Shown here: positions 50,838-51,014 of the stretch, piece after piece
Numbering within the stretch: position 1 is the stretch's first letter
How the letters are laid out: every line of letters starts with the position of its first letter
NCBI RefSeq assembly: GCF_014237875.1
Contig: NZ_JACJVJ010000001.1
Span: 1,042,501 to 1,106,500, forward strand
Direction of reading: 5' to 3'
Length of the DNA: 64,000 bases
Source of the DNA: Parasphingopyxis marina
Lineage (GTDB): Bacteria > Pseudomonadota > Alphaproteobacteria > Sphingomonadales > Sphingomonadaceae
Made by a program: the position numbers and the translations under genes
The notes under the pieces: model-generated
Told to the model about the DNA's origin: nothing
Databases searched by the model: none
The model's input: only the letters and a program-made list of their open reading frames with translations

Positions 50838-51014
50838 TTAATTCGTCTGATCGTCTGGGCTGGCGAACGTCTTGAGCTGGGTGTTGGTTTTCACCGTGGG
50901 GGTCGTAGATCGGGCCGCCTCTCGCGCCGCCTGTACGGCCGGCAGGAGAAGGGCGCCGCCCTTTACCTGATCGAGCTCCTGCTCACTTAATTCCTCTTTC
51001 TTCTGTTTCGCCAT
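50838..51014 (-). CDS. Double-glycine leader peptide 5 (58 aa; absent from supplied ORF track)
   Basis: Manual translation [58 protein letters not shown]. Confidence 0.78.
   Translation of the reverse strand: [58 protein letters not shown]

Follow-up and report, generated by a model that had tools for sequence, protein, structure and literature searches.

In the window, by which we mean the whole stretch of 64,000 nucleotides from Parasphingopyxis marina that was analysed here, eight consecutive open reading frames between 50229 and 52443 carry a double-glycine (GG) leader and two more are found at 41925-42409, together with genes of an export system and a deiminase-like gene (Table 1). The leader of about 20 amino acids with the pattern L..EL..V.GG stands directly before the core, and L9, L14, V17 and G19 are invariant in eight leaders. 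Against the bacteriocin leader model TIGR01847 they reach 15.0-15.5 bits, just below the cut-off of 15.7, and with our leader model 16 genomic places are detected, at E values between 1e-10 and 0.07. The LSExELDxVxGG leader is common to these peptides and the class II GG-leader bacteriocins, whereas the cores described here are mosaics of motifs from other proteins and, unlike for these bacteriocins, no immunity gene was identified for the array. Two further places in the source genome (G000) were observed. One is a GG-leader peptide (KELDAVQGG|VARSDLSASQQ) adjoining a radical-SAM-like protein, possibly a separate RiPP locus (L003, 1351-2858; G000:C1, near 1338662). At the other, two unlinked GG peptides carry VAAGDINGD, which is FG-GAP-like, the Hcp-like IVSSYQVGGS, and QYNPETVSRS (L173, 6425-6664; G000:C1, ~826 kb).

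Table 1: Features of the GG-peptide cluster in the window.
Feature	Position	Strand	Evidence
Further GG peptide	41925..42146	-	leader
GG peptide at far end of cluster, Hcp N-terminal strand YLKIGDIKGES	42182..42409	-	score 43, reached by 1/200 shuffles
Cyclic-nucleotide-binding-like protein, TIGR03896-related	42557..43084	-	86.9 bits, below cut-off
NHLP-type export ABC transporter 2 (TIGR03797)	43088..45583	-	683 bits, just under cut-off 709
C39 peptidase/ABC exporter (TIGR03796)	45584..47719	-	917 bits, above cut-off
HlyD-like adaptor (TIGR03794)	47716..48990	-	248 bits, above cut-off
Deiminase-like protein, agmatine deiminase/PAD fold	49062..50156	-	Foldseek 1xkn E=4.2e-10
GG peptide, gp19 C-terminal motif WNLENAWPSKVSG and FLSSGHTTGSNI module	50229..50462	-	PF06841 E=0.016, below gathering; 63 vs shuffle max 50
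GG peptide, eCIS tail tube (gp19) N-terminal motif FGAYNFKVEIEGV in core	50561..50800	-	45 vs shuffle max 43 (0/200)
GG-leader peptide with DUF1559 motif in core	50838..51014	-	translation and sequence comparison
GG (AG-type) peptide, eCIS_core/DUF4157 zinc motif (10 residues)	51114..51359	-	PF13699 E=0.0049, below gathering
GG (GA-type) peptide, C-terminal module KPEPKQMERVFEDE common to G272/G336 peptides	51423..51584	-	sequence comparison
GG peptide, FLSSGHTTGSNI module common to 50229-50462	51690..51899	-	65 nt at 77%
GG peptide, peptidoglycan-binding-like VDGDFGPA	51948..52142	-	by eye; shuffle scan not significant
GG peptide, mosaic: Hcp strand VESFSLNFEKIK, eCIS AAA+ FIGETEKNL and PG-binding VDGIVGPKT	52210..52443	-	PF09374 E=0.021; AAA+ 46 vs shuffle 44; Hcp 49 vs shuffle 43
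TolC/NodT-like outer membrane channel	52514..54025	-	TIGR01845, above cut-off

Export and possible modification genes

TIGR03796, TIGR03797 and TIGR03794 occur together, the combination that marks an NHLP export cluster, with TIGR03797 just below its cut-off. The exporter set, along with paralogous GG-cut precursors with variable cores, is shared with the NHLP/N11P export clusters (Haft et al. 2010, PMC2887384), but the leader here is short and of the bacteriocin type, where those clusters have a long nitrile-hydratase or Nif11 leader; no model match to a long leader of either kind ending in GG was obtained. The cores are almost without Cys and a deiminase-like enzyme takes the place of the cyclodehydratase or LanM of such clusters, neither of which was seen among the cluster genes. 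The C39 peptidase/ABC exporter would be expected to cleave the precursors after GG.

The deiminase-like protein shows conserved FE(G/A)GN, HIDMF and GGLHCLTN segments, with HID and the C-terminal HC invariant. The model behind its Foldseek match is of modest quality (pLDDT 69, rmsd ~10), and we regard the protein as a candidate peptide-modifying enzyme; that it deiminates arginines of the cores is a guess. A proposed likeness are the citrulassins, citrulline lasso peptides (PMC12971885), in which a peptide product is also combined with a PAD-type enzyme. In the citrulassins a lasso core is the substrate of the PAD, whereas the product here is not a lasso peptide and the deiminase is a different and very divergent one. 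A second, longer deiminase-like paralogue lies near a radical-SAM-like gene in genome G272 (L200, 8578-9967), where no GG peptide array was found.

The DUF1559 segment of the peptide at 50838-51014

The earlier note had proposed an unlisted precursor of 58 amino acids whose core carries a DUF1559 pilin-like signature, and translation of the open reading frame returns exactly the peptide given there, with an AAGGAA ribosome-binding site immediately 5' of its ATG. A 15-mer of the core is identical to a segment of a planctomycete DUF1559 prepilin (locus L054), which bears out the proposed match, and scores 67 against a maximum of 62 among 360 shuffled-core scores at the same loci. In Pfam the core itself does not match DUF1559 (PF07596/SBP_bac_10), but that of a paralogue in the same genome (G000:C1:698531; MTNK...TGG leader, 36-residue core) does, with E=3.5e-8 and 34.2 bits against a gathering score of 23.3, spanning profile positions 1-25 of 268. 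Homologous precursors keep the run, both this paralogue and GG-leader peptides from three other genomes in the family (G272, G336 and G643), so the refuting condition given in the earlier note does not hold. Among the relatives listed for bacterial genomes nearly all are planctomycete DUF1559 prepilins with 69-78% identity, one having 56%, while phages and plasmids contributed just one DUF1559 gene beside noise.

ALLLPAVQ(A/S)AREAAR is common to the peptide and the prepilins, and the paralogue shares an additional 12-residue stretch. As the segment comes after FTLIELLVVIAII in the planctomycete prepilins, what the peptide contains is the conserved stretch behind the hydrophobic pilin helix, with the GG leader replacing the prepilin signal. 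Neither an FTL(I/V)ELLVVIAII segment before the motif nor a globular domain after it is present in the 58-residue product, which is therefore not a DUF1559 protein, as these have a prepilin signal, a hydrophobic helix and a globular domain. Recent capture of DNA from planctomycetes was considered and left no trace, since at shared residues the two peptides of this genome have a codon identity of 0.33-0.37, no higher than the 0.35 between planctomycete genes. A 15-residue DUF1559 motif is also found together with FG-GAP motifs (FG-GAP_3 E=0.0014) in a 150-amino-acid protein with a signal-peptide-like N-terminus from the same genus (L135, 4460-4912; G009), thus mosaics occur beyond GG leaders. 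Another GG peptide of the source genome contains ADGSVKFIRDSINPS, resembling the H-X9-DG C-terminus of DUF1559 proteins (L175, 6966; G000:C2, ~294 kb; TIGR04294 E=0.09, below cut-off).

Motifs of other families in the array

The GG-leader precursor and its genuine DUF1559 segment hold as first described, whereas the motifs of other families in the neighbouring precursors, among them parts of extracellular contractile injection systems (eCIS) and Hcp, had been overlooked; it is this pattern that constitutes the actual finding. The cores of the array are mosaics of 8-20-residue signature motifs from unrelated families, namely DUF4157, the gp19 tail tube, the eCIS AAA+ ATPase, T6SS Hcp and DUF1559 and, more weakly, FG-GAP and peptidoglycan-binding proteins. 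The motifs are shuffled between peptides and modules are duplicated within the array, as FLSSGHTTGSNI at 50229-50462 and 51690-51899. In the syntenic arrays of G272, G336 and G643 the cores include a 39-residue stretch...VPSEDFTLNYEKIKVEY, QYNLENAWPTR, YANLEVSHLKS, LTILTTNFKGNV and QYNPETITR. Three peptides have eCIS_core (DUF4157) above the gathering score (best E=3.9e-6). One GG peptide of G643 has AAHELAHSVQQQGN as its entire core, essentially the DUF4157 zinc motif alone (L169, 1833).

In the eCIS loci compared, YIGETEKNL and YANLEVSHL match two places of the AAA+ ATPases, both within one 593-aa open reading frame at locus L166, with the best match of YIGETEKNL at L157. The tube motifs match the N- and C-termini of gp19 and HELTHVQQ matches DUF4157. 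None of 200 shuffles reaches the scores of the two AAA+ motifs, the gp19 N- and C-terminal motifs or eCIS_core. Hcp, including planctomycete ones, matches three core segments, of which the middle and the C-terminal one beat all shuffles. Weaker are LTTN against the sensor-1 region of the AAA+ ATPase (7/200 shuffles reach the score), the CIS-tube match of QYNPETITRS (14 to 54 of 200) and likewise the peptidoglycan-binding motifs. The core domains of eCIS include gp19, AAA and DUF4157 (Geller et al. 2021, PMC8213781), and each of the three is represented in the peptide cores by short motifs; these are matches of 8-20 residues and no whole domain is present. A phmmer search of the cores against the PDB returned nothing useful.

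In peptides this short, such matches might be due to chance or to coincidence in the databases, but we find this hardly credible. Several single matches are indeed weak (T6SS_HCP 0.17, FG-GAP 0.015, PG-binding 0.021), but shuffled controls give far fewer: Pfam detects nine families in 44 cores, with eCIS_core in five members, compared to three families in 44 shuffled cores (best E=0.031), and NCBIfam three families compared to none. The same motifs recur in four genomes, and DUF1559 and eCIS_core pass curated cut-offs; for these two families coincidence is already refuted. An unsegmented scan placed real cores above all 360 shuffled scores three times for eCIS, once for Hcp and three times for DUF1559, which are modest counts; in the control set the single excess came from a core that hit its own gene, and two cores of low complexity were also above the 99% level. 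For the segmented scans modules were chosen by eye, and the unexplained modules scanned alongside mostly gave no match. Because only conserved motifs can be recognised, the recognised ones are skewed towards these, which weighs against the mimic reading proposed below.

Conservation and distribution

The order TolC-like protein, GG peptides, deiminase-like protein, HlyD, C39-ABC and ABC2 is kept in four genomes, the source genome, G272 and G336 from another genus of the same family, and G643 as the third array genome outside the source. The array peptides are under purifying selection, with a pooled dN/dS of 0.21 over seven G272/G336 pairs in which motifs stay constant and linkers diverge; for example, ALLLPAVQ and NYEKIK are retained while the linker changes. 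Arrays are present in 3/397 genomes of the family and in 3/32 of the genus of G272, two of these being already counted, and no further array genome appeared among 385 drawn from the class. The deiminase-like gene occurs in the same three of 397 genomes and in the cluster of G643. No array was found on viral contigs.

No gp19 tail tube above cut-off was detected in G000, G272 and G336, and no Hcp in these three and G643, so the motifs are foreign to their producers as far as tested for tube and Hcp. Two other genomes of the family (G123 and G023; L153-L156) possess eCIS tail tube genes, with no GG array by the leader model. A single planctomycete donor with both eCIS and DUF1559 was rejected, as gp19 was found in 0/12 planctomycete genomes, though Hcp was present in 5/8 tested.

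Possible function as exported motif mimics

The open reading frame at 50838-51014 is very probably a double-glycine-leader precursor, one of an array of about ten, with a mosaic of foreign signature motifs as its core. In the model that we propose, the NHLP-type exporter (C39-ABC, ABC2, HlyD and TolC-like) would cut the precursor after GG and export the peptide. The exported cores, perhaps also deiminated at their arginines by the deiminase-like enzyme, might then act as motif mimics that compete with their parent proteins at conserved interfaces and thereby block assembly or loading of contractile injection systems and pilin-like filaments of rivals. To this identity and mechanism taken together we assign a probability of roughly 0.4. 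Interference by mimicry is plausible, as baseplate assembly is blocked by a peptide designed to copy the interface of a T6SS subunit (PMC8406304). We propose a likeness to this biomimetic inhibitor, in which a short copy of a subunit interface stops assembly, although it is a designed, cyclic peptide targeting TssK-TssG, whereas the motifs here resemble those of Hcp or eCIS parts. Mimicry of cytoplasmic eCIS parts such as the AAA+ ATPase would need entry of the peptide into the rival cell. FG-GAP, peptidoglycan-binding and DUF1559 motifs are not part of injection machines, which means that a single common target cannot account for every motif, and it also counts against mimicry that module scans found no source for several modules (MERVFEDE, KHEYREHVSLTYG, FLSSGHTTG and NSGIVKT.KPGSK).

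The peptides could instead be ordinary bacteriocin-like products, with fragments of foreign genes recombined behind the leader and kept for generic physical properties such as an amphipathic helix or strands. GG leaders encoded beside NHLP exporters classically bear hypervariable cores (PMC2887384), the leader resembles bacteriocin leader models and modules are duplicated in the array, but we consider this explanation rather unlikely, given that one type of machine is represented by several recurring core domains (tube, ATPase and DUF4157), that motif residues persist while their flanks diverge, and that HExxH-QQ or AAA+ motifs are not needed for generic bioactivity. Less probable still is a role as adhesive or signalling modules, in which the motifs would attach to filaments or surfaces of partners (pilin-like, tube, beta-propeller, peptidoglycan) or act as kin signals. 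FG-GAP, peptidoglycan-binding and DUF1559 are surface or extracellular themes and would fit this role, as would the secreted same-genus relative, in which a signal-peptide-like N-terminus is followed by both DUF1559 and FG-GAP motifs. The motifs of the AAA+ ATPase and DUF4157, however, are not adhesive, and no receptor was identified among the cluster genes.

Returning to mimicry, it is a tentative and doubtful generalisation that exported mosaic peptides have evolved naturally as mimics of signature interfaces, those of contractile injection machines and of pilin-like proteins, and disarm competitors in this way, as a peptide-based counter-defence built from shuffled motifs of the attacker. 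In the literature searched, with subscription journals mostly outside it, we found no description of such peptides or of such a decoy defence. If true, bacteria would export decoys against injection machines made from the motifs of those machines, which would add an extra layer of defence and offer a ready source of natural eCIS and T6SS inhibitors. Even with another function, arrays of signature-motif peptides conserved across species would be a surprising form of protein evolution.
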